Assembly: GCF_026151205.1 (NCBI RefSeq)
Contig: NC_087083.1
Coordinates: forward strand, 1,116,001 to 1,180,000
DNA: 64,000 nt
Reading direction: 5' to 3'
From: Bolinopsis microptera
Lineage: Eukaryota > Ctenophora > Tentaculata > Lobata > Bolinopsidae
Shown here: in pieces, positions 34,701 to 64,000 of the stretch
Numbering within the stretch: position 1 is the stretch's first letter
Layout of the letters: each line of letters begins with the position of its first letter
Program-made: the position numbers and the translations under genes
The notes under the pieces: generated by a model
Databases searched by the model: none
What the model saw: only the letters and a program-made list of their open reading frames with translations
Told to the model about the DNA's origin: nothing

Positions 34701-35433
34701 GAAAATGAGAAGGAGGAAGTCGATTTACGTCCGTTTCTGTCCGTTTTTTGAGGAGGAAGAGGAGGATGAGGGTGGGGAGAAGGAAGACTGAGAATGTACT
34801 GTACATGCGAGGACTGAGGAGGAAGAGGAAAAGTAGGAGGACTGGAGAGGAGGAGGTTGAGAAGGTCTGAGGAAAAGAAGGACTGAGGAGGAAGGGGAAG
34901 AGGTTGAGGAGGACTGATAAAGAGGAGGATGGGGAGGAGGATGAGTAGGAGGACTGAGAAGGACGATAAGGAGGAGGAGAAATGAAGAGGAGGAGGAGGA
35001 GGAGGAGGAGGAGGATGAGGAGGAGAAGGAGGAGGAGGAGGAGGAGGAGGAGGAGGAGGAGGAGGAGGAGGGATGGCCGATGGAGGATCTAAATGTTATT
35101 ATCGTAACAGTTTTTGTCCGTTTTAGTCCGTTTTGATGAGGATGGGGAGAAGGAGGACTGAGAAGGTATTGTACATGTGATGACTGAGGAGGACTGAGGG
35201 GAGGAGGATGCGTAGGACTGAAGAGGAGGAGGTTGAAGAGGACTGTGAAGAGAAGGACTGAGGAGGATGGGGAGAAGGAGGAGGAGGATGAGGAGGAAAA
35301 TGAGAAGGAGGAAGAGGAAGGGGAGGAGGAGGAGGATGAGGAGGAAGATGAGAAGGAGGAGGAGGAGGAGGAGGAGGATGAGAAGGAGGAGGAAGAGGAG
35401 GTGGAAGAGGAGGAGGAGGAGGAGGAAGAGGAG

Positions 35434-35468
<35 letters not shown>

Positions 35469-40730: not shown

Positions 40731-41408
40731 TCACTGAACCTTCTTGTCTTCCTCTTCCTCCTCCTGACTGACAGGACGTGGCTGCGAGCGCTGCAGTCCT
40801 ATCGTGTGCGCTTGCTTTGGTTTACCAAACACTGAGTGAATACCCCAAACTGTCACTAAAAACAGAGCTATCATCGCCACAATTGGAATAGCTATAAGGA
40901 TAATGATTGAGGCAACCACTGGTACATTCGCTTGTTTGGTGAGGTAATCGTGCATGTCATTGACCTTGATAGCAAAGGATACAAGATATCCAAACATCTG
41001 CATTGTAACAGATCCAGGTCGTCTGTACCAACTCATAGGCTCCAAACTATGACACTCACCCTCTTCCAAGAACTTCTTCCACACATTAATCTTCCTGGCA
41101 CCTTGATAGGTTCTGAAAACTCCATCCTTAACATGGAACAACGTGGGTATTCTAGTGACAAGAAGTTGGTTACTAAGACTATAACCCACAGTGATGTCTA
41201 TCTCGGCTATGTTGTATTCCTTGTCTTCAGCCCAAGCTCCTAGTTGGATCCAGGATTGCGCGATGGACTTGCATGCGCCACACCATGGTGCGTACGCCTT
41301 GATAAACCAGTCTCCATCTTGGATGATGTGACTGTTGTCGTCTGTTAGTACAACTACTTCACTGCTGACTAAGATAAGAGTGCAGGAGAGAACCAAGAGT
41401 TTATTCAT
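40731..41408 (-). CDS. TMX1: TMX1-like thioredoxin-related transmembrane protein
   Basis: The intronless 225-aa frame starts with a signal peptide (M-N-K-L-L-V-L-S-C-T-L-I-L-V-S-S). A thioredoxin domain follows, with active site W-C-G-A-C near residue 43 and the cis-Pro motif R-I-P-T-L-F-H. One membrane helix lies at about 163-190, and the cytosolic tail is rich in Glu/Lys. This order matches TMX1, a disulfide-handling enzyme of the ER membrane that acts on membrane-bound clients. Vertebrate TMX1 has C-P-A-C, so the Pro-to-Gly change may alter redox potential. It is a little shorter than the vertebrate protein (about 280 aa). The lack of introns is unusual beside intron-rich neighbours and could reflect retroposition, but no poly-A tract or target duplication was seen. 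Confidence 0.85.
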   Translation of the reverse strand: MNKLLVLSCTLILVSSEVVVLTDDNSHIIQDGDWFIKAYAPWCGACKSIAQSWIQLGAWAEDKEYNIAEIDITVGYSLSNQLLVTRIPTLFHVKDGVFRTYQGARKINVWKKFLEEGECHSLEPMSWYRRPGSVTMQMFGYLVSFAIKVNDMHDYLTKQANVPVVASIIILIAIPIVAMIALFLVTVWGIHSVFGKPKQAHTIGLQRSQPRPVSQEEEEEDKKVQ

Positions 41409-42265
41409 TGTCTAAGGGAGAGGTTTTTATTTAATTATTTGTAACTAAATTACTCAAATTCGCGCTTGTGCACGTCTCACTTCTGTAACAATCGGACATC
41501 AGGCAATGGTTCAACAACACTTTTCACAGGACCCATCGACACAGCCTGAAGGTGACTGCATAATAACGGGCCAAAGTGGAATCACACAATAATAGCTTAT
41601 TATCGTGCATAATATCGTGCATAATATCGTGCATAACCGAATGAATAATATCCAACTAAATTTTGTCGCTAAATCATAGATGGTAACATCAAACATACTA
41701 TTACATATTATAAATATACAGGTGGGCCAAAAGTCAGTACCCAAACGTTGGCCTTTATAGCTAAGTCACTGAGTGCCCAATTGAAATAATTCTTTCTGGT
41801 ACGACTTACCACTGGTTCGAGGAATTTGTCAACTTGAAAAATATTCGTGTCCATTTTTTTTCAATTATGAAGGTTCAGTTTTGCGTTTAATTGATAGTTG
41901 GATCGAGCTAAATTTTATTGAAGAGTTTTAGTTTCTCAGATGACTTAGATACGAAGCATAACGAGTTTATTCATTACGTGTGATCAGGTGATTGGCTTAC
42001 CTAATCACGTGACAAGGTGACCCCGTTAACCACCCCGCTCAACATTATGGGAATCCTTAAGGCTGCCCAATTAAAGTGTCTTGTCAGTCACATAATCACC
42101 CAATCAATTTTGCTAACGAGATACACAAAATGCTTGATAATTTCATCATTCCTAATTCGTTTCACATCATTTTTCAGATCAGATGCAACATTTAATAATC
42201 TACTGTCTCTGAAAAAAATTAGTCGTCCAGCATGTTCAGAGAAAACAATATAGGTGTTTTAAAAT

Positions 42266-42990
42266 AGAATGGGCGGGGTGTCTTGGAGTAATCATGGATG
42301 ATAAATTGAGCTGGAAACCACATATATCATCCCTCAACAAGAAACTAAGAAGTGCTTGTGGACGTATCTACCGTATTAAGAAATGCTTACCAGAATCACT
42401 ATATAAGCAAATATATCATTCTCTCTTTGAATCACACCTAGGTTATGCTATTTCTGTCTGGGGAGGTATTCCCAATAATCAGTTGAAACCGCTATTTATT
42501 ACTCAAAAGAAGTGTATCAGGATTCTATTTGGAGACTATGAAGCTTATGTAGACAAGTTCAAGACATGTGCTAGAGCAAGACCAATTAATTCTCAACGTC
42601 TAGGATCTGAATTCTATGTTAAAGAGTCCACTAAGCCTCTATTCACAAAACATGAATTACTTGTTACAGAGAACCTGTACAGATACCGTTGTTTAATGGA
42701 ACTTTTTAAGATCATTAAGTCACGAGTACCAATTTCGTTATACTACTTATTCAACATATCAAATAGGAAAGATAATCTGTTCATTACGCCCTCTCCAACT
42801 AATCAATTTGTTTATAAATCTGCATGGCTGTGGAATGAATTCCGTAAAGTTGGCCCGTTAAATTTCACCTCCACATGCAGATCTATCAAGAATTTACTTA
42901 AACAGTCACTTCTAAGAGCTCAAAACCGGTATGGAACTGAATGGTGTGACAAAAATTTCACTGAATTCTGATTAAGAAGTGATATTTATT
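42266..42990 (+). mobile_element. 5'-truncated LINE, C-terminal reverse transcriptase part
   Basis: A 225-codon frame (42294-42971) opens with L-G-V-I-M-D-D-K-L-S-W-K-P-H-I, the region just after the RT palm in LINEs. It then has the thumb-like G-Y-A-I-S-V-W-G-G motif and ends with a W-L-W-N-E-F motif before the stop. The frame continues a few codons upstream of the ATG to the junction at about 42266, so it is a truncated insertion, not a gene. Confidence 0.75.
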
Positions 42991-44739: not shown

Positions 44740-46560
44740 GAGCACTAATTTCGACCACTTTCCCGGTCGAACCATACCAAATCAAACTAATTGACCCACG
44801 TGTATAGCCAATGTCCTGGCGGTGCTGAGCCGATGTAAAACTCTTCTGTAAACTCTTTTGTCTCTTGTAACTTGCTTATGAGTATTGCTGAAAGCACAGT
44901 GTAAGGCCTACACGGACCGCCTCTAACTAGCCAATCCCTGTTTACATGCCGTGTAGCAGGGGACTAGAAAGAGCTAAACTAGTAAGCGGGGCATAGCCAA
45001 TACACTATACTTCCATCATTGAGTATATTACCAACCAACAGGAAAATTTCCTTGTGTTTGGAATCTACCAAGACGAAAGTTGTACAATCCAGCGAAATTC
45101 CGCTATTTTATATTTTAGTTATACTGTGTACTGTGTACAATAGTTATAGCGTATAGTGTGTAGTGTGTAGTGGTTATTTTGTTGTAACGTGTCACTTTAT
45201 TATTTGCTACCAACGTCAGCCTTGACTTACCATTTATTGTAATTGGTACAGCATATATCAAAATTAAAACACTGTTTTCGATCTGACGGGTGATGGGCTC
45301 TCTCTGATGGGACATATAGTTCTAGGGGGTACCCGGGGTACGAGTTAACGAATAGTGTTCGTGTCCTTCCACAATCCCCTCTCATTGTGTTTTTGACGGA
45401 GGAGGAGCCTAGTTCATCCGTCTGCATCGCTTAATCGAGTTAAAAATTTAGCCAATAACAAACTAAATTACATGTTATACTGATATCAGATGTAGAGTTT
45501 ATAACATACAAATTCTAAATTTTTGACGGCTGACGATGGTAAGTCGCTACGTTTAACTCGGGACTTTTATAGTCTTAAGTCTTGGAGCTCAAAATGTCTC
45601 GTGCTGTGGGCCGTATAAACGGCGCACACCACCGCCCCGCCTTACTGCTTACATTACTTCATGGTTGCAGGGCGGAGCCGGTGCCGTTTGTCTCGGCCTC
45701 GAGTGGCGAGTGCTTGCTCATCGAATACACGATTGAAACACTAATTATTTACTGGCATTCTACAGTTTCCAAAACGAAGTACGAAGGTATATTAACTTTG
45801 AGCTTTGTTTTGGCGACTGCTTCATCGATGGGCAAGTAGGTATTTGTTGTTTAGCAGTGTTGAATATTGGAGCAATTATATAATGTATATCTCCATCATA
45901 ATATAGGCTAGTGTAAACATATATAATCAATAATACAAACAAATAGTATTATATTATTGGTAACTCGCTAGATTATAAATGTTATTTAAACACATATGTT
46001 TACGTCAATTATTACTAAAATTAATATTCTTTTTGCTTTAATATAATTACATGTCACATAATTGATTAGTTGAATGAAACGTGTGCTACAAATGTCTACG
46101 CCTCACGCAGAACTGCGTACCGCTTAGTACTTCATGCTTGAGCGGTACTGCTGTTCACAGAGGCGCGCATATAATAGCACTCAATTTAATCACAAATAAC
46201 GAGCGCGCGGTTTTTGGAATTTCTCCATTATTATTTTTCGATCTATTAATTAGATCGCAGTGCTCACGGCCTGTACTGCGTGAACGACAGAAATATGTTT
46301 TAAATTATTTTGCTTCTGAAATTTTGGCTCTAGTAATTAAGAAATGCGACATGTAATTGTAAGATAACAATTAAATAGATCCTGTGCGCGGCGCCTACAG
46401 CTGACCTACGAATTTCTGAACAATTGAAAATTGTGGCTGTGTGCGCGGCGTACTGTATATGTGTTTGAAATTGAAATTTGAATTTATTTATGAATATAAC
46501 ATTATGTATTGATTGTTTTGTGGTAAATAAAAAATTTTTCTTTCCTAAAAAAAATTTTTC
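44740..46560. other. No gene supported
   Basis: Short frames only. A string CGTGTGCTACAAATGTCTACGCCTC (from 46080) shares words with repeats at 19050 and 47787. It is probably part of the expanded element at 41719-46713 or of further insertions in it. Confidence 0.4.
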
Positions 46561-46727
46561 TTTCCTGTAAAATATTCGAATTTTCAAATTTTGGCGCCGG
46601 AATCCTCAAACAAGCAGATACAGTATACCATCTGCAAAGCAACAACTCTCAAATATAAAACACGGCGGAGGTGTAAGACCTAACGTACGGGTACTGACTT
46701 TTGGCCCACCCTGTACTTGAGTAAAAG

Positions 46728-46805
46728 CGTATGCTAGCAGCTAGCGTATGCTAGTATACGTATATGCTAGCAGCTAGCGTATGCTAGTATACGTATATGC
46801 TAGCA
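46728..46805. repeat. 33-bp tandem repeat, about 2.4 copies
   Basis: The unit TATGCTAGCAGCTAGCGTATGCTAGTATACGTA is rich in nested palindromes (GCTAGC, TATACGTATA). It starts 13 bp after the end of the TA-flanked element. Confidence 0.85.
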
Positions 46806-47526
46806 GCTAGCGCGCTGGTACAATGAAACTAATAAATCAATGTTTTAGCTCATTTTACAAAGTCAAATATTTAAAACAATTAAAATTGTATAGTGCTCAA
46901 TTTGTAAATGACTAGTTGATCTTTGCTATTGGAAGTTTGTCAAGGACTGGCAGCTAGCGGGGCAATGAATGCACGGGTACAAAATACCAGCTGTTAAATT
47001 CGACCTGACCACACCGTCGAAGGTTGCCAGTTAATATTGGGTTAAATGTAAGCCAGTGGTGCCAAGCGCCGCCACATTCGTGTGGCACTATATTTTTCGT
47101 AAATAAATTCACACTTGAAGTGTGGAAAAAAGCGCCCGCAGTGGCGTGAAAGCACATGGATAGATGAAACCATAAACATGTGTGCAAGTTAATTGCTTTT
47201 TACATAAATTGCTTTGTATTTCATAACCAATAAATCAATTTTTATCATAAACGAGGAATAAGTAAGTGTCGTTTTTTTTAAAGTTAGCACACCACACACG
47301 AGACTATTTTAAAATTTGCTCTGATCAGAGCAACTAATTATACAACGCAAACATTTAAATTCTCGAGCTGGATCGATCATACTAGCAACATGACAACAAT
47401 TAATAAACTTTTATTAAATGTTTCAGTGCGGCTTGCCGGCTTAAATATACACTTATAACAAAACAACCCATAAAACTTAAATAGCAATACAGTCAATAAT
47501 CGCATCAGATAAAAAACAATAAATGT
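46806..47526. other. No gene seen
   Basis: AT-rich sequence with short unsupported frames. Confidence 0.4.
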
Positions 47527-47662
47527 TAATTGACGATGTCAAGTCTTCGCAGATCGGTGAAGCCCAGTAGCACATTTTAATATTGCCGATTTAACAAAGT
47601 TGTGGTTGCGAGAAGCATTATTGGATGCGCGGCGTGGCCCAGTAAAGCATCGCGCTACAACC
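47527..47662 (+). repeat. Dispersed SINE-like unit, copy 3
   Basis: It begins TTGACGATGTCAAGTCTTCGCAG and ends CCCAGTAAAGCATCGCGCTAC, the same order as copies 1 and 2. Confidence 0.5.
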
Positions 47663-47972
47663 ATAAATGGAAACGTTAAATTTTTAAATTATTTTGATAC
47701 GTTTTGCTTTCAACGGCGCGCGCTTTGCGCGCGAAAAGTGGCATGCGCATGCAACGTATTGCTCTAATCAGAGCCCTCTAACAAACGCGTCACGCAGTAC
47801 GCGTATACACATGGCTATGTGAATGCAACGTATGTCCAAAATTAAAGCAATATGATTAATAAATTAAAAAATGTATTAATATTGCATTTATACAATATGT
47901 TATTTATTGTTTAATGTTTAACATTTTTTCGTATTTTAGGTTCATTATTTTTGTTACAGCAATTTGTTGCAT

Positions 47973-48095
47973 TGATTAACGGTGTCAATCCTTCGCAGCT
48001 CGATGTGGTCCAATGGTGCATCTCGCCGAATAATCTAAAGATTGCAAGAAGTAATGTTTTATGCGCGGCGCGGCCCGATAGTTTATCGAGATACA
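47973..48095 (+). repeat. Dispersed SINE-like unit, copy 4
   Basis: It begins TTAACGGTGTCAATCCTTCGCAGCTC with the GTCCAATGGTGCATCTCGCCG string; the second half is diverged (GCGCGGCGCGGCCCGATAGT). Confidence 0.5.
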
Positions 48096-49019
48096 AAGCT
48101 ACTTGCCGAGCTAACCAAGTTTTAATTCGGGCTCGGGGATTTTTAAAATTTATTTAAACGATATACACAATACAAATAATTTCAGCGATGAATATTGTAA
48201 TGATTATTGTCAACAAAATTTAAAGTCGATATACAAAATAAACTAAGTTATTTAGTTTGTCAATTTTGCAAACCGCACCAAACGCTTAATTGTGCCACGC
48301 GGAAGAGCTGTTTTAGACCAGGGTGACATATAGTAAACTCATATACTGTCTCGTCTCATTCTGCTTTTCCAAACCCATCATGTCACTTTTAACACCATCC
48401 TCCACCCTTCACTTTGATTACTCCGACAACCTTCCCCAGGGTTGCCACACCCCAGAGGTAGGCAGAGCATCTCAATGCTATCTTCTCGTGGGCTACTTGG
48501 ACAGCCTCTCTTTAAAAATATATATTCCAAGTGTTTTGGGTGACTTGCTATCCCTAGTACGGTTCTCAAGATGTCATCTTTCAGAGGCTTCATAGACGAA
48601 TGCAGAATAAGCTAACTGGGGTTCGTTTGCAGCTGCATCTACACTTAACAAATAAAAACCTAGAATGTCTGCTTTTCAACTGTCAGTCTTCTCTAATGTG
48701 AACTTTTGAATCTTCTAATCCAAGGGCGCTGCTATCACCTTATGTTGTTCCTGAGATGTGCATGAAATATGTATGAGTATGAGATCATCACTGTTGGCTA
48801 TGAATAGGTCTGATTCTTTCTGTAGCTGATGTATGTGAACTACAATATACAAGGTGTATTAGAGTTTCTCAACCTCTGTGTTGTGATGTAAGGCATTGAA
48901 GTCCTTTTTTAGTATTTGTATTTTGTATTTGTATTTTGTTTCTCATTTCACTATTTTCAACTTTTTCTGCACAATTCATAGAATTAGTTTATTGAATCCA
49001 CATTTTCTATATTTTGAAT
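48096..49019. other. No gene supported
   Basis: Short frames only. It may contain decayed 5' sequence of the LINE fragment that follows. Confidence 0.35.
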
Positions 49020-49450
49020 ATATAATGTGAAGGCTGATGGAGGGTCCGCAGTAGTCCCATTACCTTAGTATTGCTGTACAACTACTACAGAAGGGTCTTG
49101 CGCTACTGGAACAGTCTACCACCACTTGTGAAAGCTAGTGAGTCGGTTACTGGATTCAAAAGGGGATTAGATGCCTTTGGGCTTCATGGATATCAGGCAA
49201 ATAAGCATGGCCACTACTGGGAACTGTCATATGACATCTTTGATAGGATAGATGTGTCTGTGTCTAATAGGAATAGTTATGTAAGTTATATGAAAGAGAA
49301 TCCAATGGTAGCTATATCAAAGGTATTTAGTTGAATTTTTTAAAAGTTTGTAATTATATGGTTTCAAACGTAAATGTTCATTTTCTGTGAATTTCTTTTT
49401 GGGATGCCCAGAGAGGCATTATTTATAATGTTATGTTATGTTAGAAGTAA
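49020..49450 (+). mobile_element. LINE 3'-end fragment
   Basis: The frame at 49071-49334 has R-Y-W-N-S-L-P-P-L-V-K-A followed by F-K-R-G-L-D, the usual C-terminal motif of CR1/L2-like reverse transcriptases. A short ATGTT-type tandem tail follows the stop (about 49428-49442). Confidence 0.6.
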
Positions 49451-49887
49451 TCTGAAAAACTGAAAGAAATATGTTTACCACCTTTGGCATTAATTACAAT
49501 CGGTTTACGTAAGCCCCTGTAAAAATTGTTCTTTCACATGGCTAGCTCATGGTCATTGCTTAGAGCACCAGAATTAAACTTTCTTTTCAATCAACCCTTA
49601 ATTTAAAAAACGAAACTAAACACAGTATTTACTAATTACTACCCGCTACTATGCGACAAATATGTTGTATGAAATATATATAAATAGTTTACACAATATG
49701 GTACCCATGTCTAAGGGCTCTCCTCAAAAACTTTCTCCCCTCGTCAAGAGTAACAAGTTAAAAATGGACAGATGTCTCACGAAATCAAAAAATACTAAAT
49801 AAGGTGATTATAAATGCCTGTATATTTTAGATCAAAATACTAAAACTGCGACTGACCATTTGTAACCTTTGTATCTCTAGAGAAATC

Positions 49888-52800
49888 ATGGCCTCTGCTG
49901 CTGTTGATGAATTGGCTATTAACATCGATAGTTTGGACTTGGAGGACAAATTGAAGTGGCTCAAAGAGATTCTGGAAAATGGTCGAGAGAGATTTGGACA
50001 ACTGGATGGAATTGACAATCTTGCTAATTTTATTGATAAACTTTCAGTAAGTATTTATTATCTATAGAACAATATATGAACAACATTGATTTTCTGAGAA
50101 AAGTATTGCAATTACTACACTGCATTTTTATTTTGAGGGTAATTTATTTTTCAATATAATCCACTCTAGAACAATCACCCAAGAAACACTCTCACAGGAA
50201 GAAAAAATAATATCTGGCTTCAACAAGAAAAACTTGGACAAGTTGAAGGAACAATCAGAGATCGTAGAAGAGCTACACAGGATACTACCCACTAAAGGAT
50301 GGGATAACTTCAAGAAGGCTCGCGACATTCTGTACGAGATATATCCACAGTTCAAGGAGTAAGTTTTTGAAGTTCTGAGTTTGGGAATCGGATCAAAAAA
50401 GTAGTGCCATACGCCAGTGCATCGGAAGCTTTGAAGGATTGTATCAAGTGTTCAATTGCAAGGCTTTTAAAACTTCTGCTACCCCTGGCCTGAGGGTGAT
50501 TTTAATGTAACTGTTGCTGTTAAACTTTAGTAATGTACCTTGTTATATTCTTATTTCGAGATGGGTTTATCATATCTATTACCATAACAGAATGTTACCT
50601 TAGCATAGCATTTCATCACATTATAACATTAAAAATGAACATTACAGTGAGGGTATAACATTAACAATGAACATTACAGTGAGGGTATATGGGATGAAAA
50701 CAAAGTGGACGATCTACCAGTGCTCTCGATAAAGTACAGTTCAGTCATCGAGGAAACACAGGCAGTTGAACACGACGGAGCTGCCGCCACTACTGCTGAT
50801 GGTATGTTGATTTTCGTGGGGAGGCTGGTTGGTGAGATGGAATGTGGAATGTTAAGATAGGATGTGATGGTGTTTTATTATCCAACCTGAGTTGTTGTGA
50901 TTGGGCTTTATCGTACTAGGGCATTGCATTTTTAAGCTCCGAACTTTGGTTTCGTGCAGATTTTCGAGCAGTTTTTCTATCGACTAATCCATTTGTTAAT
51001 CAATTAATTAGTTAATTATCTAATTACATAACGACCCCAGATGAGGCTGACGTTGACGGTATGTTCTCCAGCACTTCTCGTGTCCCTGCACAATCCAAAT
51101 CAGCACCAATTCAAAGGTAAATTGTCCATACTGTAATGTTAACCCATTAATTGTGCTCAATTAATATACAGGGGGGGGGGGGGGGGGGTGGGGGCCCAAA
51201 GTCAGTACCCATACGTTGGGTCTTATACCACCGCCGTGTTTTATATTTGAGTGTTGTTGCTTTGCAGATGGCATACTGTACCTACTTGTTCAAGGATTCC
51301 GTAACCAACATTTTAAAATTTGATTTTTGGAGGCCACACCCGATCAACATTGAATTGCTTATACTGGTGTTTGTGAAAATGTTAGAGACTCCATTGTAAC
51401 ATATTGCAATAGGTCATTTAATCCGGAATATAATCTGAAAAGATGGTGCGAAACGGATTTAAAATAAAGTTATCAAGCAATTTATTTATCTCGTTAGCAA
51501 AATTGATTGGGTACTCAATGATTGCCCAATTACGACACCGTAATTGGACTCTCTGCGCGATTCCTGTAATGCGGATCTAGCATCAACCCAATCACCTGAT
51601 CACACGTAATGAACAAACTCGTTCGGTCATCTGAGAAGCTAGAACTCTCATTTTTTCAGGACAAACGTAATTCAAATGGCCAAACACCATTCAATAAAAT
51701 GTGGCTTGATCCGACTATCCAAACTATCTAATAAATGCGAAAATGAACACGAATATTTTTCGATTTGACAAATTCCTCGAACCAGTGGTGATAGTAAGTC
51801 ATACCAGAAAGAATTATTTCAATTGGGCACTCAGTGATTGAGCTATTAAGGCCAACTTATGGGTAATGACTTTTGCCCCCCCCCCCCTGCATCTAGTAAT
51901 TGACTGATTAGATATATAAATAATCAAGCATACTCAATTCATTGAATAACCAATTTATCAACTAACTGACTAGCTGATTTTAATACTCAATAATCAGCTA
52001 ATTAATTAACTAATTAACTAACCCCACAGGTCTGATTTCTCAGCGCTACCATCCTACAGTATGACTAACAGAAGACACAAAGGAATTTGTCTGATAATTA
52101 ATAACGAGGTCTATGATAAAGCCAGAGCATATCATAAAGGTACAAGAAATATGCTAAATTATAAATATGCTAATTAATGTTACATAACCTAACTAATCTC
52201 ATAAAGGTACCATATGTACCAGATATTACACAATCTAAATAAACATATGTATATTGGGTCGAATACATTGATGGCGACTTGTGTCACTCTCATCGACCTT
52301 TTTCTATTCTGATGAAATTTGGGTTACGGAAAGCTGAAATTCGAATGTCCTACCGGTAGGACATTTTCAAAATTTTCACTCCGTCAACGTTTTTCACCGG
52401 ATATACATATTATATAATCGATCACGGATCATGATAAAATTTTCTCGAATTTCTCACACGATGACTGCTGATGGTTTGATCGTTTTTATCAGAATTTCAC
52501 GATATTTGACATTACCCACTCTCGCAATCTAGCTATAACTTACGTTTTATTTACGTTTTATTTACGTTTTATTTACGTTTTATTTACGTTTTATTTACGT
52601 ATTACAACCACAACTCAGATTTCAAAGACAGACGAGGTTCCAGTAAAGATGCTGATTCTGTCAAGGAACTGTTTGGTAAGCTCGGCTTTTACGTGGAGTC
52701 CCAGAAAAATCTCACAAAGGCTAAGATGGACAAGTAAGTGAATACCTATTAAACATTAACCTTATCAGTATATTTTTTATTGTGAATAAAAAATAAGACA

Positions 52801-55800
52801 AAAAACAAACAAAGCAACCTTATCATACTATTTGTTGTTTTGCTTTTGTATTTTAAGTTGCAATTTGGGTTTTTAGAGATCTAAAACGGTGATTGTTCGT
52901 AGCAGATTCTTTAATTATTTACGATTTTATGAAACTTTAGTTCTGCTATTTTCATATTTAAGCTTCTTTATTGACCCTTGCTTTGTTATATCACGCTAAG
53001 TTAGTTAGCATTGCACTGTTAGTTGCATTGTTAGTTGCATTGTTAGTTAGCATTGACTTGTTAGTTAGTTGAATTGTTGAAGCTTTTAGTTAGTTACATT
53101 GTAATGTTAGTTAGCATTACATTGTAATGTGCAGTTTAGTGCGTATTCTGATAGCCCCTACTCAACAAGATATTTAGCAAGCTTGCGATCAGTATTGTTT
53201 ATTTCTAGATAATGAATCAATCATGCTAAGCGTCCTACTCAAATGTTGGTTTTCTAGTCCATGTTTATTCTATTAAAAGTACCACTTATTTCGATACCCA
53301 GTTGAATTCCCCCTTGTCGTGTTTCTCACGTGACGTCACACTTAATCTCACGTGACGTCACAAACTCCCTCACGTGACGTCACAAACTCCCTCACTCCCT
53401 GACACACAAACCTCCGCAGGCTGATCGACATGATGGTGAATTTCCAAGGACTCAACACTTACAGTTGTTTTGTAGCAGTGTTTCTGTCTCATGGGGAGAA
53501 TGAGTGTTTGAACTGTGTAGATGGTCAGGATGTAAGTACTAGACATAAATATACATATTATGTTATAATATGTTATAATATGTTATAAAGTTATAATATG
53601 TCATTATGACATATTATAAATATACATATTATATCATAATATGTTGTAATATGTATATCTATATTTTTTTGACCAAAACCCATAATCATGGGTAGAGTGT
53701 ACCGCTGCCAGTGTCTCTCTTTTCCAAACAAAAGGAAATGATATTAATTTGAGGAACAGTCCGCTAATGCAAATTGATACCGAGAATGAAATCGGTCGCT
53801 CGCTTTTTCAAATCAATAAGCTTTATTACAATTCGTAAGCCGTGATCGAATGGAAAAAGCGAGCGACCGATTTCATTCTCGGTATCAATTTGCATTTATA
53901 GCGGACTGTTCCTCAAATTAATATCATTTCCTTTTGTTTGGAAAAGAGAGACACTGGCAGCGGTACACTCTACCCATGATTATGGGTTTTGGTCAAATAT
54001 CATCTCTTTTTGATTATAATGTCAGGATAATTTACACAGCTAGCCGAAACTTCATTAACAAGGAGGTAATTTCGACGATTTCGAAATTCTGCCTTTGAAA
54101 ACGTTTCCTTGTGTTTAGTTAGGTATTTCTGTCGATAACCGACTGAATATGGCACTTTTTACTCATTCAAGTTGCCATTAAATTCATATATCATGCCATT
54201 TAAATATCGTGGAAAGCAGAATATATTCGAAATCACGAATGAGCAAATTTCTCACCTTTCGCACGTGCAAACTTTGAGCGGACGTCGCGTGCGCATACAA
54301 TATTGAATCACGGTACATTTTTGCATAGTGGTATTTAATATATAGTTTGATAAGCATGCAAAGTTTCAGAAGATTTCAAAAAGAACTTGGATCACAACGG
54401 GACTCCAAAGTTGATAAAAATCGTGAAAATCAAAATTTTTAGCGATTTTAGCTATTTTAAATGAATTTGGGCGTGTCCCCACGTGTGCAACTTTTCGATT
54501 TTTAACTTTAAAACTAGCCTATAACACAATTTACACCTTTAAGAAGCAAAATTGAGCTCCACAACCCAAGGGATGGCCCAACACCAGAGAATACTAATTC
54601 ACAACTTTTGTGTTTTTATAAAATTATTCTTCAAAAAAGCACTAACTTCAATAGCAAATATCTTTATGAAGGAGCAAGGTAGGAAACTATTCCGGTAGAT
54701 TTTCGGAATGCTTGAACAATTATCTAAGATGAAAATGTCCTCAGATTTTGAATAAAATTACTCCTTAATAGTGTAAAATCGATTTAAAAAGTTGTTACTT
54801 TGTCAAAAGTCAAGTTTTAAAAACACTTAACTTGATGACGTCATCAAGTGATGATGATGACGTTAAATTATTTTTCAATACAATGTAAACTAAAGCTTAA
54901 ACAATTATCTTTAAAACCTGTGGTTCGAGATGACTGTATCGTTTATACTTTTGAATCTACGGACACTTAAATGTAGGCTACAATTGACTGCAAAAAGCGT
55001 CTATATATATATATAGTATATATATATCTTCACGACAATCTGTTGTAAAACAGGGGTTCCAGAAAACCCACTTCCCGATACTCCTGAAACATGACATTTT
55101 TTTTACAGTCGATTTGGACAAGGTCTAGACGCCCTGCAAAGTTTCAGATCTCTAACTCAATTTTAACATGGTTTTTAAGGCACCTGAATATGGCGATTTT
55201 GGGTTTTTTACCTAATTTCGTATAACATGCTGGCGCGTATTTTGCGCAAATTTCTTAAAAACCTCCATATAACTATTTCTTATTCCTGTCATCTTCAACA
55301 TTGAATTAGAATGTTTTGAACTTAAATGTACCTGCTGAACTACTTTCGATGAGTCTTAATGCCTGGAAAACAATAAAGGGGATATAATCGTATAGGGGGT
55401 AAATAGTGTTGTGAATATAAGGGCGACGGTAATGCTTGCCAGCATTGTGATTTTAGATATAAATCATTCTATGAGAAGTAGTGACCGATTAAATTCTTTA
55501 ATTTATGTCACGTGTCAAAACACTGACAATGTCATTATCATATTTGTGGTGATATAATTTCAAAGAAACACTGAATTATCAAACGCTTGTTAATGTTTTC
55601 TGTAAAGTTTAGTGTGTATTTATTAGTATCACAGTTAGGCTTCATTTGCGTCCCAGATGTATTAACCTCATATCATAGATTATCGTCAAGATGCTAATTA
55701 CTATGATATGAGATTATAATTATTGAGAAAATGTATACAACTAAATTTACTACGAGATTTCGTAATATATTTCTGATCCGTTGTATGCTCATTGCAGAAA

Positions 55801-58800
55801 AAGATAGATGATATCATAAACGCGTTCAAAGGAGACAACTGCCCAGCATTAAATGGCATACCAAAATGGTTTATTATACAAGCCTGTCGTGGTAAAGATT
55901 TCAACTATGAGGTATGTTAGGAATTTGACTCGTTCTAAATGAGGAATTATTTATTATTTCTTGGTTGTTTTTTTTCGTATTTGAAACGATATTCTCAGTA
56001 TAAGTAAGAATATTTAAATAATTCAATTCACACATCACTGTAAACATAAGACAGTCAAACCTTACATCGATACCTGAGGAATCCATAACGAAAACCAACT
56101 CGTAACTACAAGTTATAAACAGAATTAAAATGTCATGACTTATAAATAAAGCCTAGTCTTGTGACTTATAAACTCCTCAGGTGTCAATACAACACGATGC
56201 CCCCGGTGATGAAGGACACGACGTAGAGCGACAATCAGACAAACCAATCAGCATCCCGGCCTGCGCTGACTTTTACATTTCATACGCAACCGCCCCAGGT
56301 ATACATTCCACACATTTCATACTGTGATATTCTTATCAGCTCAGCATTCGTTGTACTGTACTTCACACATGATATTCTGTTCCGTGTGTGATGTTTTGAG
56401 TTTTCGATCAGCATTCTTTGCATTCCATCGAATCATGAAGATGGTCTGCTTGTTTTGATTTATTCTCCTGCCAATGAACGTGTGCACTAGCAAATTCGAT
56501 TTAAGAGGGATACCTTTAAAATGGGATATAACTTAAAGAGTCTACTTTTAGAAAGTGCTGGAATGCGCGTTGCCAAAATTGTGAAGTATAGTGCGCATAA
56601 TAAGACATTAGCGCGCACAAACACGCGCGCTATTTCGTTATAGACCACCGGACTCGTGTTTTGATTACTCGCTGGAAGTTCGTTAAAATGTTGATGATCT
56701 CATGAAGGCAGCCATCTATAAGCTTACACAAGGGTGCAAAACAGTCATGACATCATTCATCATTAGACGCCATCGAGTACATGTAATTACATCAGCTTGC
56801 TAGCTGTAGTGATCACCATTAAGATTAACGACTAACCACCATCAAGCCCTGAGGTGGCCTCGTGCTCAACTGATTCAGTAAATGTTCAATGGTTTGTCAG
56901 GCATGATCCACCAGATAATCAATGTCAAGACAGTAGGGTTAGTGGTCAGTTATCTGACAAATGATTAGAAAAAAGAAGGCGGTGACGTCGTAATAAACGG
57001 AGCTGATAACTCAAAGATAACAAGGGTTAACTACCCGTCATCTTGATGTTTGGGAAATTAGTTATTTGATATTGAATTATTGAAGACACCTTATAAGTAG
57101 CAGAATAGAATTACATGTTGTCTCGAGAAAAAAACATGAAGTGAAACAAGTTTAGTGAAAATGGAGATTCATACCATGCTATTATTCATAATTGTGGCAG
57201 AAAACACGGTGAAAACTCGGTTTCTGTACTGTGACCGGCTACAATAAACATAACACTGATTCGTTGATTTTACTCTGTCGATGATACAGAAACCGAAATT
57301 GCCACACTCTTTTCTCATATTGTACCGCCATTTAAAATACTCATTTCACTTCTTCATCTTTTTAAACTATGTTTGTCGTATAATCATAAACAAGTTAATC
57401 CTGTTTTCATGAATGCGCGGCTTTGGCGGCCAGTTATTGACTTATACATTAAATTGAATTTTAAATAGAAATGTGAATATATTAAAATTTAAAACTTTCA
57501 AAACGGAGGCTTATAAATATTATCATATTATGATTGTAAAATAAAGGAAAAAATTTTAAATTTGTTTCACTAAATTTTGTTTCACTAAACATTCACTGAA
57601 TCACGTGACTTCACACGCGTTACTTCACACATACACTCCTTCCAGGGTACTTCAGTTATCGTAACACTCGCACGGGTAGCTGGTTTATTCAGTGTCTCGT
57701 GGAAGTACTTGCCAAGTACAACTGGTGTGAGGATGTTAACACTATGATGACGAGAGTTAATAGAAAAGTCGCTCTAGGTGCTATTTTTACTACTTTTCTT
57801 GCCATTCATCTTTCCGAAAATGTGATGAAAATGTTTACTAAAAAATTCTGGAGATTATGCAGTTCTCTGCTTTCAATTCAACATTTGTAAAGAAACAAAT
57901 CGAACATGAATTGGTTGATTAATGAAACAAACAATCAATTAAAAGTAAGTAACTAATTAAAAGTAATTAAGTCGCTAAACCGGTTTTAGGGTTTCACCAC
58001 AAAATAGAGGGGGAGTATGTGCGGCAAATGCCGTACCACGTCAACATGTTAACAGGGTCCCTGTTCCTCCATCCCACGTACACAGCATAGCCGCCAAGTG
58101 AGTTCATATCACGTGTGTGTGTCACGTATGATGTCATGTGTGATGTCGTGTGCGCATGTGGTTCGTGTGTGATTATCGGGATGATTCCCCCAGCTAATTT
58201 TTCATGTTTATGATTTCGCGCCGATACTTGTGATTAACGGTTTTTGATTCACGGAAAAGCACAATCGTCTCTAGAGTTGCTTTTTAAAAAGCCAGATTTT
58301 GTCTTTCTCAAATGCTGAGCTGCTTTGTTAAATCATTACAAAAGCAAATCAAAATGCTAGCCTCAATGATATAATCCGATTGTATTGAAGAATGATTGGG
58401 GAAAACTCACTGCATAACACTATTGAACTCTAGTGCAGGTTCGGTGCGGTTCTAAGCTCAGTTCGGGGTGGTTACAGGTTCCACCTGTTTAATGATTATA
58501 TCCGGGCAACCAAACCTATCTTAGAACCGAACCAAACCGAACATTCTAGAGTTCAGCAGAGTTACCTTTATAATTAATTAACCTAACAGATTAATTAATT
58601 AATTAACCTAACTGACTCCTTCCGTAGGTTACTATTCATTCCGTAACATCAACGAGGGCTCCTGGTTTATCAACGACCTCTGTAAAGTGCTGAAGATGTA
58701 CGCACAGAAAGAGGACGTGAACACCATGATGACGCGCGTCAACAGGAACGTGGCGCTGGGACGGGTTGTGGGCTCCGAGTATGGGCACCGTCGTCAGATG

Positions 58801-58866
58801 CCGTGCCATGTGAACATGTTAACCAGTGCGCTGTACCTGTGCGGGGTTCGGCAGTCTCAGATCTAG
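49888..58866 (+). CDS. CARD-type caspase with two alternative p10-encoding 3' exon sets
   Basis: Coding exons: 49888-50046, 50198-50358, 50680-50801, 51041-51116, 52030-52139, 52619-52733, 53420-53531, 55798-55911 and 56181-56298. The last of these can join either cassette A (57646-57777 plus 57990-58090) or cassette B (58628-58866). Phases match throughout, giving about 439 or 441 aa. Residues 15-107 are a death-fold domain, most like CARD (L-P-T-K-G-W-D-N-F near its end). The p20 domain has G-I-C-L-I-I-N-N, R-R-G-S-S-K-D-A-D, the catalytic His in L-S-H-G-E and the catalytic Cys in Q-A-C-R-G. The inter-domain linker contains several Asp residues suited to processing. Both p10 cassettes keep the substrate-pocket motif S-[FY]-R-N and G-S-W-F-I. 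CARD caspases act as initiators of cell death or of inflammatory signalling; its orthology to a given human caspase cannot be settled here. Introns carry several MITEs. Confidence 0.88.
51169..51889. mobile_element. Compact 721-bp TA-type MITE in the caspase gene
   Basis: It begins CAGGGGGG... with GTGGGGGCCCAAAGTCAGTACCC and ends with the inverted form, GGGTAATGACTTTTGCCCCC...TG. It is homologous over both ends to 41719-46713 in inverted orientation. TA precedes it; the right flank is CA. It lies in the intron between exons 51041-51116 and 52030-52139. Confidence 0.7.
52540..52600. repeat. 11-bp repeat (TTACGTTTTAT)n
   Basis: Five copies ending 18 bp before the acceptor of the caspase exon at 52619, so it overlaps the expected branch-point and pyrimidine region. 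Confidence 0.9.
53326..53392. promoter_or_regulatory. Three tandem CACGTG-TGACGTCA composite motifs
   Basis: TCACGTGACGTCACA occurs three times in about 60 bp, overlapping an E-box (CACGTG) and a CRE (TGACGTCA). It lies just upstream of caspase exon 53420. The same composite occurs near 58879-58945 and 62101-62160. A regulatory role is possible but unproven; it could be part of a repeat. Confidence 0.35.
53669..53996. repeat. Foldback element, about 145-bp arms, in a caspase intron
   Basis: TTGACCAAAACCCATAATCA at 53669 pairs with TGATTATGGGTTTTGGTCAA ending 53996. The arms are almost identical over their full length, with a spacer of about 35 bp. It is probably a MITE. Confidence 0.85.
54000..55797. 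other. Caspase intron sequence without further genes
   Basis: AT-rich. It contains a perfect 20-bp palindrome around TGACGTCA (54830-54849) and a TATATA tract near 55005-55027. No coding sequence is supported. Confidence 0.45.
56299..57645. other. Caspase intron before p10 cassette A
   Basis: No exon or clear repeat is seen in this 1.35-kb intron; both p10 cassettes are downstream of it. Confidence 0.45.
57646..58090 (+). CDS. Caspase p10 cassette A (two exons)
   Basis: Exon 57646-57777 (phase 1 in, phase 1 out) reads Y-F-S-Y-R-N-T and G-S-W-F-I-Q, then V-N-T-M-M-T-R-V-N-R-K-V-A-L. After a 212-bp intron, 57990-58090 reads F-H-H-K-I-E-G-E-Y, R-Q-M-P-Y-H-V-N-M-L-T and ends in TAG. All expected p10 strands are present. 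Its donor (CTAG|GTGCTA) is weak. If it is not used, the frame runs on to about 57890 and lacks the end of p10. Confidence 0.65.
58628..58866 (+). CDS. Caspase p10 cassette B (single terminal exon)
   Basis: It joins from exon 56181-56298 in phase 1. It reads Y-Y-S-F-R-N-I, G-S-W-F-I-N-D, V-N-T-M-M-T-R-V-N-R-N-V-A-L, then R-Q-M-P-C-H-V-N-M-L-T and ends in TAG. It is clearly a duplicate of cassette A without the internal intron. GC content is higher than in A, and its acceptor context CTCCTTCCGTAG resembles A's CTCCTTCCAG. Confidence 0.75.
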
Positions 58867-60183
58867 AGATCAGTTTCACGTGATGGCATTGGATTGTCAC
58901 GTGACATCATTGGATTGTCACGTGACGTCATTAGAATGTGACGTCATGTAAGGACTCATTACCGTGAGTTTGAGGTTGAAACTCTGTGATAGAAAAGATC
59001 AATTGGTATCAGTTTGGCATGTTTGCATGGAACTTAAATAATATTGGCGATGCGAACTCTTTTGGATAACTTATATACATTTTTAATGGACTTCCTCTGA
59101 GACAATAATTCTTGGTGCAATCAAGATAAAATCATATTACATTTTTACCTCTTCAACATGTTTCTTAATATAATAAGGTTAGGATACTAGATTACACTAG
59201 TTATCTACGGATTTCTTGCTTTATTTCATTGTGCACTTGTGCATGTGGTTTTTAAATGATGATTGTTTACATTAATAATGAAATGTTCGAGAAAAACAGT
59301 TGTTTAAGTTTGTGTTAGTTGTAATATTTTTAGTTTTATTTGATAACGAATCTGTTTGACCAGTGGCTATCAATTCCGTATAATTTAGACTTTTATAGTG
59401 CTTTTGCAATTCATCCGCTAGTTAAAGCAGTAATACATCGGCACGTTTGATAAATACAGTTAAACTGAATATGTGAGCGTAAGGATATTTAAATCCTTAG
59501 CATGATAGTGCCAATATATTTGTATTGGCACTGATTTGTTAAAATAAGAGAAATGGTAGTACTTTGATAATATGCGATATAAGCTGGAGAAAGACGTAAA
59601 CTTTTCATCGGCACAATTTTATTAATATAAGCGGAATGGTCTTACATAGATAATGGGTTATCGAATTTATTAAAATGTTGTGTTATTGACAACCGTTTCA
59701 TTAATTGAACTAATGTAAAGTTTATCTCATAATTAATTGTTTCCTTAACTGTGGTGTTTTCGATTGAAAAATAATAAAAGGTTTTCAAATGGTGAAATTT
59801 CTAGAATAAATTCTAAATCATCATCAGAAAATTACGTCTAAATTATAAACCAATAATTTAGATATTGGACGATGATGGCATTGTGTACCCTGTCAAAAGA
59901 TTGTAATTATGATAATTATATGATTCGGAAGTCGGCCGGCGGCATTCATTATCTCACGGTTAGTGAATTCTAATTACAATATACTCAATTATATAATATA
60001 ATAAAAGTAAGTTGCACTTGAACATACTTCAAATACCTGTATATAAAACCTTTCTTTTACAAATCTGTCCATCATTGAAGATTATTCAGATTTTTCAAAG
60101 ATAATTCTTGAATTGATCAACTTGTTAATCACTTGATAGATTGGAAAATTAAATAATCAATTAATTAAATCTGAGAGAAGTTA
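58867..60183. other. Caspase 3' UTR and convergent intergenic region
   Basis: TCACGTGA/TGACGTCA motifs follow the stop (58878-58947). AATAAA-like signals occur near 59774. The next gene ends from the other strand at 60184. No coding sequence is seen. Confidence 0.45.
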
Positions 60184-63100
60184 TCAAGACTTCCTCCTCG
60201 TTTTAACGTTGATACAGTCCACTATAAGCCATCCTACTCCAACCACTATTATCACACACCCCATCCATCTGAAAATATCTTCACTGTGACGTTTATATAA
60301 TTAACATTTTTTACAAATCGTTGACATAAACAATAAAAGACCTCAAGATAATAAGTTAAATCTTAGTCCGGTACCATACATAACAAGATAACAGTCAGAT
60401 ACCACTATATAACAGATGCTTCTATTATATATAATATATATAATATATATATTATATAGCAGTCACACCAGCTCATGTCAGGTGTCATCCTGCCTCCTGG
60501 TTATAGATGAAATGAAATGAAATGAGGTATTTATATCCCGCTCATATGATTAACCAACAACACAAGGAAGGTGGTTAACCATGTCAGAGCGGCTGATTGT
60601 GAGTGATGTGAGCAAAAGTGTAAAAGTGAACTAAAGTATAACTCAGCATAAGGCAAAGACAAAATTAAAACATCTTTTATTGTAAACCACACTAAACTAA
60701 ATAGAAGCAGAAACCATACAGTACATGTAGGTATAATAAAGGTAAGTACAGTGACATAATCAATCAAGAAAGAATCAGATCCAAGTAAGTAAGGGATCAA
60801 GGCATAAAATGGAGTGCGGTAAAAAATAAAAGCCAATGTGTCTTGCAAAGTGAAGACAAAGGAAAGAAAAACATCAGAACTGATTATATAAATGATTCTT
60901 TAACATTCGCTTGAAACAGTTGGTATCAGTAATACATCTCAACATCAGGGGAAGAGAGTTCCATGCAATCGGTGCATGGCTTGAGAAACGTCTGTCATCA
61001 ACTTTGGACCTTTTATTCTTTGGTACCTTGAGCATGAGATGGTCATCAGGTCTCTTCGACCTGGTCATGGTCATGGTGTTTGAGAGTTCTTTATCCACTA
61101 CATCCACATCCAGTAGTGCTTTGAGGTAATCAGGTGCAGTACCGTGAACTGATTTTTGGGTTAAAAGACAAACTTTAAAGAAGATTCGTTGGTCTATAGG
61201 GAGTATGTGGGCCTTCTTATAGAAGGGAACCAAGTCCGTGGTCCTCTCTTCTATGTTATAGATGAAACGAACTGCCCCATTAAGGGTTGATCTAAGTTTG
61301 TTCAATCTGGTCTTGGGTAGATTCATGTAAAGAGAATTACAGTAGTCTAATTTAGATATGACCAGTTGTTTCACCAGCATCAATTTAATGCCTTCATCCA
61401 GGTAACGACCAATGGTTCTTAGATTCATCATTGTCCAGCTGCATTTCCTTTTGACATTATTGATCTGTCTTTCCATATTTAGAGTTTCATCAAATTTGAC
61501 ACCCAGACTCTTCCAGCTGTCTCCTTTACACTCCGTAGGCAGAATTTCAGTGCTTCCAAATTGCAGTCTGACACAGAGTTCACACTTTTTTAGAACATGG
61601 CTCTTTCCTAACACCAGTAGTTCTGTCTTTGTTTCGTTCAGTTTCATGTAGTTGTTCACCATCCATGCTTTTATCTCTGCAAGACATTTGTTTGTTCTGT
61701 CTTGGACATCAATAAACTGTACCACACGGTTTGGTTTAAATGAGATGTACAGTTGAGAATCATCTGCATAGAGCTGTATAAAAACTATACTTCGTAAGCT
61801 GCAAGATTAAATCATTCTAATATGTAAATATGAAGTGACTGATATCATTGGCCCCCCCCCCCTGATATCTACTAACCTCGATATCGGGGACTGGTGAGAA
61901 ACAGCTATAGCCCACGTAGCTACACCTATCATTATCAGAACAAGACCAACAAACATTGCCATCCTGTCACGGTAATATTGCTTCTGAAATAGTGAGGGAG
62001 CTAGTGTTACGTGCACATTAATGAAGATTTTGATTGAGAATTTTAAGTCCCATGAAACTAACTGTGACAGAGAAGGTTGGTCAATTAAGGTAGAATATGA
62101 CGTCACGTGAGGGGAAGTAATTAGTATGACGTCACGTGAGGGGAGCATAAGGTCACGTGACACAACTTACCGCATAATCAACTCTAGTCTGATGTACAGG
62201 AGTGGGGAGAGGGGGACGGGCAGTGTTCTTCATGGCAAGGGCGGGGTGCTGTTCTGCTGCTATCTCCCAGGCGGGGCGGTGTTGCCGTCTCACTTCATCA
62301 TCCTCCTCGTCTCTGGGGAGGGGGAAATTTTGGTCACACAACACGGAACAAAGAAGGCTGTTTGTGAGATATTTGAGCTGCTCGGTTAGTTTCAGTAAAC
62401 AAGACGGGATATATTTGTGAGATATTTTAGCTACTATGTTACTTTAGATGTGCAGGTATGTTAATCTTGCACGTGCCAATTATATCTGCATACCGGGATC
62501 AGTGATAAATATGGCGCCGCAGTTAGATCTGAAGAATTTAGTTTAGTATTTCTTTCATTTTTAATTGTGGCATACTTCTAGTAATTTATTTAATTATACA
62601 ATGCCTATAATTAAAAATGGCATTGGTATGTTTGGCCTATCACCGCCATCCCACCTGGTACTGGTAGCGACAGTGGCTTTGTTATGACGGAGCTACGGAT
62701 ACCACTGGTGATTGTGCGAAAAATACCACAACATTTATTACGTAACATGTGAAGTGTGAACGACCCCTTCAAGATGTATTCCGGGTAAAATAGAGAAATT
62801 CTCCCAAATAATAGGAGGGTTCTTAATCTAAAGCAGCGCAAAGAAGACGCTTGCAACAAGTCACGCGGGGTGTCCAACCCCAAAAACCGATTTTACCTCA
62901 AATTCCCATTTTGGGGTTGGGTTTTTTGGGGTTTTTTCCATCGTTTTTGTAATTTTTCATCCGATTATTTCAAAACCCAAAAATGCATAAAACAAATGAA
63001 ACATATTATTATAATTGATAATGGGGATGATGGAGGGTAACATATAATGTATAACTTGGTCTCAAATGAATGTAGGTGTAAATAATATCAATCCTAACAT

Positions 63101-63949
63101 TTTTTCTAATAATAGGGTTTTTAAATGCGCCTGAGGTCAAAACAGCGAAACATTCAGTCTCAACCATGCCTTTAAAAAAAAGTTTAAAGTTTATGGCAGC
63201 CTAGACACCCCCAAGTTTTTTTCCCTTTATAGAGCTGCACGCCACATATGTCCAGGTTCATTACCCCCCTAGTTACTTTTAAGATTATTCCTTTTACTGC
63301 TGAATAAACTGATTATCAGGACAGATCGAATTACTATAACGATAAAATAAAATAAAAGTTAAATATTACATACTATATTTTCATACTTGATTAGTTTAAA
63401 TTACGCCCAGCTCCGTCGACACGGTTACAGAAAAACTTGATAAACCGGTTTTGATAGATGAGAATTTGAACCCTTGCCAAATTGTAGGGTATCAACAAAT
63501 TGTAGGGTATCAACAAATTGTAGGGTATCAACAAAGGGGTTGTTGCAATCGGCTGGACCCCAAAATGAAGATTGTTCTTTTAACCTACTTAACTAGTTAA
63601 CTTAACTATAAGATAATTATATTAGCCCTAAGGTGTCGTATCTTTTAGTCTTTATAAATGTACTAGAATAGTACAAGTGCTTCCTTGTCTAAATCAGCTT
63701 CCTTAGCGAAATAAACTGGTTTTTCCGGATCTTAAACGGGTTAGCAAAGCTTTGGAATATAATAACCATATATCACGTTTTAGTGATAGTAGCGTTAATG
63801 TTATGTGTTTTACTGTTACATTCGACTTCGTTCGTGTTGTTAATTATTGTTAAGTATCATAAAATATTTTTTTAATGAGACGTATTTGTACGTTTAATCC
63901 TATGATTTATAAACCATAGGATAAACTTACCAATTTCTATAATAGTCAT
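60184..63949 (-). CDS. Small two-transmembrane protein of unknown function
   Basis: Three exons are well supported by phase: 62310-62171, 61983-61877 and 60268-60184. A tiny first exon, 63949-63931 (M-T-I-I-E-I), joins in phase 1 if the acceptor is AG|AC at 62311, giving 116 aa. The N-terminal half is hydrophilic and acidic (D-E-E-D-D-E-V), then Pro-rich (A-R-P-P-L-P-T-P). Two membrane helices follow (M-F-V-G-L-V-L-I-M-I-G-V and C-V-I-I-V-V-G-V-G-W-L-I-V), and a short basic tail K-T-R-R-K-S. Both ends are predicted on the same side of the membrane. No family was recognised. The intron between the last two exons carries an L2/CR1-like LINE. If the first exon is wrong, the acceptor is probably CAG|A at 62312 and the true start lies beyond the window. 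Confidence 0.6.
60505..61800 (-). mobile_element. 5'-truncated L2/CR1-like LINE
   Basis: The frame runs from about 61795 to the stop at 60874 and begins with the RT catalytic box L-Y-A-D-D-S-Q-L-Y (about 61766). It continues through L-N-E-T-K-T-E, L-G-V-K-F-D, L-D-Y-C-N-S-L-Y and A-W-N-S-L-P near the end, the standard order of CR1/L2 RT C-termini. A 360-bp 3' UTR and an (ATTTC)n tail (60508-60525) follow. It is inserted in the same orientation as the surrounding gene. Confidence 0.85.
62313..63930. other. Intron or 5' region of the small membrane protein gene; no other gene seen
   Basis: It contains an 18-bp tandem repeat at 63479-63535 and otherwise AT-rich sequence. The frame at 62611-62883 has no family features and is treated as chance or repeat. 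Confidence 0.4.
63479..63535. repeat. 18-bp tandem repeat, 3 copies
   Basis: The unit CAAATTGTAGGGTATCAA repeats three times head to tail. Confidence 0.9.
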
Positions 63950-64000
63950 GAAATGCCCTACTAAAATTTGGTCAAACTTAGAAGACTTATAATAAAATGA

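Follow-up and report, generated by a model that had tools for sequence, protein, structure and literature searches.

The window analyzed here is the whole 64,000-nt stretch C12:1116001-1180000 of the comb jelly Bolinopsis microptera, and all coordinates below are positions within it. On its forward strand lies a caspase gene whose exons, which are predictions from sequence, comprise a shared part of nine exons (49888-56298) followed by either of two cassettes, A and B, that encode alternative ends of the small subunit (p10). All introns of the predicted model are GT-AG, with phases that are compatible throughout, and the spliced products are open from the ATG at 49888 to a stop codon, giving 439 amino acids with A and 441 with B. 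The shared exons, the last of which is E9 with phase 1 at its end, are as follows.

49888..50046, + strand: E1 (predicted), start codon and N-terminal prodomain (ATG; donor gtaagt; phase 0)
50198..50358, + strand: E2 (predicted), remaining prodomain, CARD-like at best (GT-AG, compatible phase; Pfam CARD under its cut-off)
50680..50801, + strand: E3 (predicted), linker (gene model)
51041..51116, + strand: E4 (predicted), linker (gene model)
52030..52139, + strand: E5, beginning of the large subunit (gene model; PF00656 starts at residue 190)
52619..52733, + strand: E6, large subunit with the S1 arginine, DRRGSSKDAD (gene model; caspase-3 alignment)
53420..53531, + strand: E7, large subunit with the catalytic His, LSHGE (gene model; caspase-3 alignment)
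55798..55911, + strand: E8, large subunit with the catalytic Cys, IIQACRG (gene model; caspase-3 alignment)
56181..56298, + strand: E9, intersubunit linker with several Asp and the first strand of the small subunit (phase 1 out)

With either cassette the predicted product is a classical animal caspase (Peptidase_C14, p20 plus p10) with putative protease activity. The whole protein scores 188.0 bits (A) or 187.7 bits (B) against PF00656, for which the cut-off is 21.4, and the cassettes alone score 53.5 and 53.1 bits, respectively. The catalytic His (SHGE), the catalytic Cys (QACRG), and the DRRGSSKD segment align with caspase-3, and the S(Y/F)RN motif present in both cassettes corresponds to the S1 arginine of the small subunit. 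Both cassettes align with the small subunit of Caspase-3/6/7 (6pdq_B, a reconstructed effector-caspase ancestor, and 4qu5_A, caspase-3) across L3, the helices, L4, and the interface strand, but L4 of each is 3 residues shorter than that of caspase-3. The best match of the small-subunit region in the PDB is 6pdq_B, at 77.6 bits for A and 85.3 bits for B, so that B is somewhat nearer to the solved caspases. The comb jelly gene differs from Caspase-3/6/7 in having a long prodomain. An initial annotation made from the letters of the window had credited the gene with a CARD, for which Pfam gives no support above threshold: CARD (PF00619) reaches 12.3 bits (E 0.18) against a cut-off of 23.9 and does so in isoform A only. 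The first 120 residues alone have no CARD match in Pfam at E up to 10 and give four weak matches to other entries, all under their cut-offs, of which the best is DUF1307 (19.1 bits). Intron 7 of the gene harbors, at 53668-53997, a 99-nt inverted repeat with perfectly complementary arms 132 nt apart, a hairpin or MITE-like element, within which a second 52-nt pair with 94% complementarity is nested.

The region following E9 contains these elements.

57646..57777, + strand: A1, first exon of cassette A, 132 nt with phase 1 on both sides, encoding the pocket loop L3 and helices up to L4 (homology, gene model, Pfam)
57778..57989, + strand: intron within cassette A, at the beginning of loop L4, with the weak donor GTGCTA (gene model, donor score)
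57990..58090, + strand: A2, second exon of cassette A, encoding L4, the interface strand, the tail, and the stop TAG (homology, gene model)
58628..58866, + strand: B, single-exon small-subunit cassette with the stop TAG (homology, gene model, Pfam)

A1, A2, and B have GT-AG borders and fitting phases, and the adjacent homologous cassettes are entered in the same phase. Eight donor/acceptor pairs for the intron of A keep both conserved flanks in frame, and only 57777/57990 makes L4 as long as it is in B. The initial annotation had placed tandem cassettes from 57646 to 58866 after an E9 ending in phase 1, either of them completing the protein and only A having an internal intron; these coordinates and this reading hold in the gene model, where both products are open with equal PF00656 scores. 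Its description of them as complete p10 cassettes stands insofar as they are homologous small-subunit cassettes, but neither is a whole p10, since the first strand, IPACADFYISYATAP, is encoded by the shared exon E9. The resemblance of A and B is beyond chance: at the DNA level their two best ungapped stretches are 50 and 47 nt long with 76% and 77% identity, respectively, blastn aligns them over 148 columns with an E of 3.5e-10, and the proteins are 58% identical over 74 residues (E 1.7e-18). An artefact of assembly or haplotype was rejected, as even these two stretches have 23-24% mismatched sites, and the cassettes are unlike in intron content and separated by 537 bp on a single chromosome-scale contig. 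A second gene with a missed p20 was also rejected: tblastn (E up to 1) gave no additional p20 or p10 exons in 46001-64000. The comparison indicates that A and B are old, intact homologous alternatives of one small-subunit segment that is predicted to help form the active-site pocket. Their third-position GC contents are 0.59 and 0.76, respectively, and that of the shared exons is 0.44.

The Ka/Ks comparison of A with B, which the initial annotation had put forward as a check, was made pairwise, without outgroup DNA. The cassettes are identical at 43 of 77 residues and differ by codon position at 29, 29, and 49 of 77 sites; the silent sites are saturated, their divergence being past estimation, and dN amounts to about 0.5. 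When omega is left free in a codon model, it settles near 0.005, with time at its preset bound and an lnL of -565.6, as compared with -566.8, -568.4, -575.2, and -584.5 when omega is held at 0.1, 0.2, 0.5, and 1, respectively. An omega of 1 is rejected (2ΔlnL 37.9), and an omega near 0.5, the expectation for the pair if one copy had been unconstrained since the duplication, is worse than the free fit by 9.6 lnL units. Cassette A has no stop and no frameshift. In neutral simulations starting from A with assumed indel rates (3000 runs each), the frame survived 0.1 changes per site with a P of 0.059 and 0.2 changes per site with a P of 0.004; for stops alone, the corresponding values are 0.39 and 0.19. 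Saturation of the silent sites, retention of 43 of 77 residues, and the disfavoring of omega values of 1 and 0.5 by the codon model together indicate that A was constrained, as coding sequence, for most of its life and that constraint, if lost at all, was lost recently. The possible alternative raised initially, that A is a decaying duplicate, is disfavored for most of its history by the codon model and the frame-retention simulation. The anatomy of the cassettes, their homology, their openness, and their long constraint are established directly. A pattern search for relatives found none among 67 stretches from a genome contig collection and none in the single stretch from viral contigs, both collections being without animals.

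Donors were scored with a vertebrate-type matrix over the 593 GT sites in 49888-60000. Two further elements bear on the expression of the cassettes.

58091..58099, + strand: 7 nt past the stop of A, then the donor CAA|GTGAGT (exon end 58097); rank 1 of 593 GT sites, by which A2 would become a 108-nt internal exon
59773..59778, + strand: first AATAAA downstream of B (hexamer count)

The strong donor at 58097, absent from the initial annotation, is of a kind found 42 times in 112,000 bases (both strands, outside 28-36 kb), and the chance of one within 20 nt is about 0.0075, although it should be noted that it was noticed post hoc. The donor of A1, TAG|GTGCTA, is the lowest-scoring of the gene (rank 137 of 593). 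Among the six kinds of poly(A) hexamer counted, none occurs between A2 and B (58090-58866), where other signals are possible; the next ones, after B, are GATAAA at 59125 and 59449, ATTAAA at 59669, and the AATAAA at 59773. A1 (132 nt) and A2 extended to 58097 (108 nt) are both phase-neutral and splices into B keep the phase, so that E9-B is in frame with A skipped, and A1 and A2 with the donor at 58097 have the predicted anatomy of a stop-bearing skippable cassette. E9-A1-B is also open and in frame, and E9-A2 reaches an in-frame stop after a truncated tail. Because the highest-ranking donor follows the stop of A and no poly(A) hexamer lies between A2 and B, these signals suggest that A, rather than being a second terminal exon, is an optional internal exon pair that carries a stop of its own and is joined to B, with B becoming 3' untranslated region (UTR). 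The stop of A would then be very close to the last junction and, by the usual 50-nt rule, nonsense-mediated decay is not expected. The alternative 3' exons proposed initially survive as two interchangeable, long-constrained cassettes but probably not, for A, as a terminal exon.

The differences between A and B are unevenly distributed. As the initial annotation had noted, and as the alignment bears out, both keep the S-x-R and GSWFI motifs (SYRN..GSWFI in A, SFRN..GSWFI in B), and they differ in their loops (NTRTGS in A, NINEGS in B) and C termini. In segments drawn by eye, post hoc, on the caspase-3 alignment, identity is 9/14 in the pocket loop (GY..SWF), 7/16 in the first helix, 14/15 in VNTMMTRVNR.VALG, 1/10 in L4, 12/16 in the interface-strand segment (RQMP..strand), and 0/6 in the tail. 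The divergence is largest in L4 and the tail, with that of the first helix also marked, and L4 differs from the other 61 core positions (tail excluded) with a Fisher P of 0.0007. In caspase structures L4 lines S4 and neighboring sites, and a difference in specificity between the A and B forms is therefore plausible. The interface strand is mostly common to both, and a different dimer interface is accordingly weakly suggested at most.

These observations are probably best explained, although with considerable room for doubt, by an old duplication in a gene that now yields two caspases by including or skipping A. An ancestral caspase with a single small-subunit end would have undergone an ancient tandem duplication of the segment comprising the pocket loop, helices, L4 loop, interface strand, and stop, after which an intron at L4 was either gained in A or lost from B, and both would have remained coding through most of their later history. 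When A1 and A2 are skipped, E9 would be joined to B to give caspase B; when they are included, the product would be caspase A, ending in A2, and the strong donor 7 nt past its stop would join A2 to B, which would then serve as 3' UTR and provide one poly(A) site common to both mRNAs. The two caspases would have the same prodomain, catalytic His and Cys, and linker and be unlike mostly in L4 and the C-terminal tail, and also in the first helix. From this combination of a shared core with a divergent L4 and tail, a differing substrate preference (on the S2-S4 side), or differences in pairing and regulation, would be expected. As parts of this explanation we infer the splicing pattern, the enzyme activity of the products, and their distinct specificity.

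It might instead be supposed that A was formerly useful and fell out of use only recently, leaving B as the sole working end. The weak donor of A1, the greater distance of A from solved caspases, and its lack of a poly(A) hexamer of its own would fit such a history, but A is free of stops and frameshifts, frame retention allows an unconstrained period of no more than roughly 0.1 neutral changes per site, an omega of 0.5, about the value expected had A evolved freely from the duplication onward, is worse than the free estimate by 9.6 lnL units, and the strong donor lies directly past its stop; we regard this history as unlikely. A and B could also be ordinary alternative terminal exons with their own poly(A) sites that compete for the donor of E9, as in pip and PGRP-LC of the fly, for which passages of PMC9013439 provide precedents. 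Both have a stop, and their acceptor tracts are the most pyrimidine-rich of the 11 scored (13/18). However, the stretch between A2 and B is free of all six kinds of hexamer counted, the top-scoring donor of the region comes after the stop of A, where a terminal exon has no need of it, and the inverted repeats in 56290-58870 (27 pairs, of which the 25 longest are imperfect, at 73-93%) offer, among those 25, no clear docking/selector pair for competing RNA structures; this arrangement appears quite improbable. Finally, transcripts with A could function mainly as a switch that reduces active caspase, by splicing A1 directly to B or E9 to A2 alone and so producing misfolded or inhibitory proteins. 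The open E9-A1-B frame and the in-frame stop of E9-A2 are compatible with this, as is the CASP2 cassette, which, according to a passage of PMC8003524, introduces a premature stop when included and yields a short anti-apoptotic form. On the other hand, the p10 end encoded by A1 plus A2 has a score similar to that of B, which a mere poison cassette does not need, and we consider a switch of this kind very improbable.

Some features of the locus nevertheless weigh against the explanation by two functional caspases. The weakness of the A1 donor means that A may be rarely used, and the donor ranking itself depends on a vertebrate-type matrix. Cassette B fits solved caspases better than A, and the pairwise omega is compatible with a loss of constraint in A that is only recent. 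With respect to specificity, L4 is a free loop in the caspase family, and since L4 and the tail vary among caspases anyway, their divergence need not mean a new specificity; also, the segments compared were defined after the alignment had been viewed.

Exon-by-exon searches of the genome (264,652,675 bases in 232 contigs) scored the best candidates only, by which intron-split or diverged genes can be missed. Those with p10 (E up to 10) gave no further copy among the best candidates. In the search with PF00656 (E up to 10), all 7 scored candidates matched, four being exons of this gene, one lying on C2, and two on C8; the same search of 14 control genomes gave no match. The C2 locus (C2:13234001-13243900, minus strand 4480-5265) contains a C14-family gene with SGHG and DCCYA that is not a classical caspase, and its first piece matches PF00656 at 38.2 bits and its second piece has no match. 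Among four reading frames from C2 and the first C8 place, two match PF00656 (38.2 bits, and 21.2 bits, which is just below the cut-off of 21.4) and two do not. The first C8 place, near 17.687 Mb, has exons resembling the paracaspase MALT1, two joined pieces of which match MALT1 in the PDB (E 7.4e-24), and near 18.358 Mb there is, by eye only, a second copy of it. A match on C7 (E 0.07) was dropped; among the matches listed for the 10 kb around it, no caspase match with isoform A was better than E 0.6. No second classical caspase was therefore found in the genome, a count that, given searches by exon among the best candidates, is a lower bound.

Elsewhere in the window, the interval 28000-36000 has a strong strand asymmetry (GC skew 0.46-0.74) and long low-complexity frames, those at 30037-31515 reappearing in altered form at 32393-33909, which suggests a repeat of ∼2.36 kb. 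A short-period tandem repeat at 38658-39257 is open in three frames (SMSQ, VNES, and LTDS repeats). Frames at 5762-8245, 42213-42971, and 60874-61806 resemble, by eye, pieces of non-LTR reverse transcriptases, and on the minus strand at 40731-41411 a single 226-residue frame has a WCGAC thioredoxin-like motif and a membrane span and appears TMX-like by eye.

The explanation can be extended, tentatively and with rather less confidence than in its core, to a system in which one gene yields two caspases by a small-subunit swap, the genome searches having turned up no second classical caspase, a lower bound. Active caspases are dimers, and therefore, if both forms are made, A/A and B/B dimers as well as A/B hybrids, differing in their L4 loops, could be formed, with the splicing of A regulated through its weak donor. 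If both are made, exon choice inside the catalytic domain would diversify protease specificity, and the locus would provide a natural test of the role of the cassette, L4 above all, in caspase specificity with the remaining enzyme identical. The ctenophore lineage is described, in a passage of PMC11797021, as sister to all other animals, and Mnemiopsis has, from a passage of PMC10876535, at least one annotated CASP3, which is downregulated 3-6 h after cutting; ML154125a, a CASP3 in that paper, is a candidate for the gene at the orthologous locus. For Mytilus coruscus, a passage of PMC10967218 reports 47 caspase genes, 16 of them in tandem arrays, with expansion aided by tandem gene duplication. 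If the present interpretation is true, mussels expand their caspase genes, whereas the comb jelly gene would use an exon swap.

Among known systems, some forms of CASP10 reportedly differ at the small-subunit end, and that gene is not known to have duplicated p10 cassettes. The human CASP10 splice forms named in a passage of PMC4558505 are 10A, B, D, and G, with the protease domain kept in A, B, and D, and the predicted comb jelly forms resemble them in that a single caspase gene gives several. The initial annotation knew of no standard caspase arranged like the present gene. Among the titles and abstract beginnings listed in searches of the open-licence literature, none described a caspase that carries a duplicated pair of intact p10 cassettes, which is not proof of absence, and passages of PMC7586951, PMC11545656, PMC2964310, PMC5413585, and PMC11853578 contain no alternative small subunit, the last describing a stop-bearing insertion in caspase-8L. 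The kind of arrangement, however, has precedents in pip, PGRP-LC, and CASP2. Human CASP2 has a cassette exon 9 (Caspase-2L/Caspase-2S), whose inclusion introduces a stop codon and gives a short anti-apoptotic form and whose skipping gives the pro-apoptotic long form (PMC8003524). The comb jelly gene is like CASP2 in having, as predicted from its sequence, an optional cassette late in a caspase gene with a stop brought by inclusion, but the cassette of CASP2 shortens the protein, whereas cassette A encodes a full alternative end of the small subunit. In Drosophila, as passages of PMC9013439 indicate, pip has tandemly repeated, homologous, mutually exclusive terminal exons, listed there among UTR duplications, and the 3' variable regions of PGRP-LC are chosen mutually exclusively. 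Both share with the present gene a choice of 3' exons within one gene, the exons of pip being also tandem and homologous, but they encode other proteins and the choice is between mutually exclusive terminal exons, whereas cassette A seemingly has no poly(A) signal of its own. Duplicated 3' exons and stop-bearing caspase cassettes are therefore already known.

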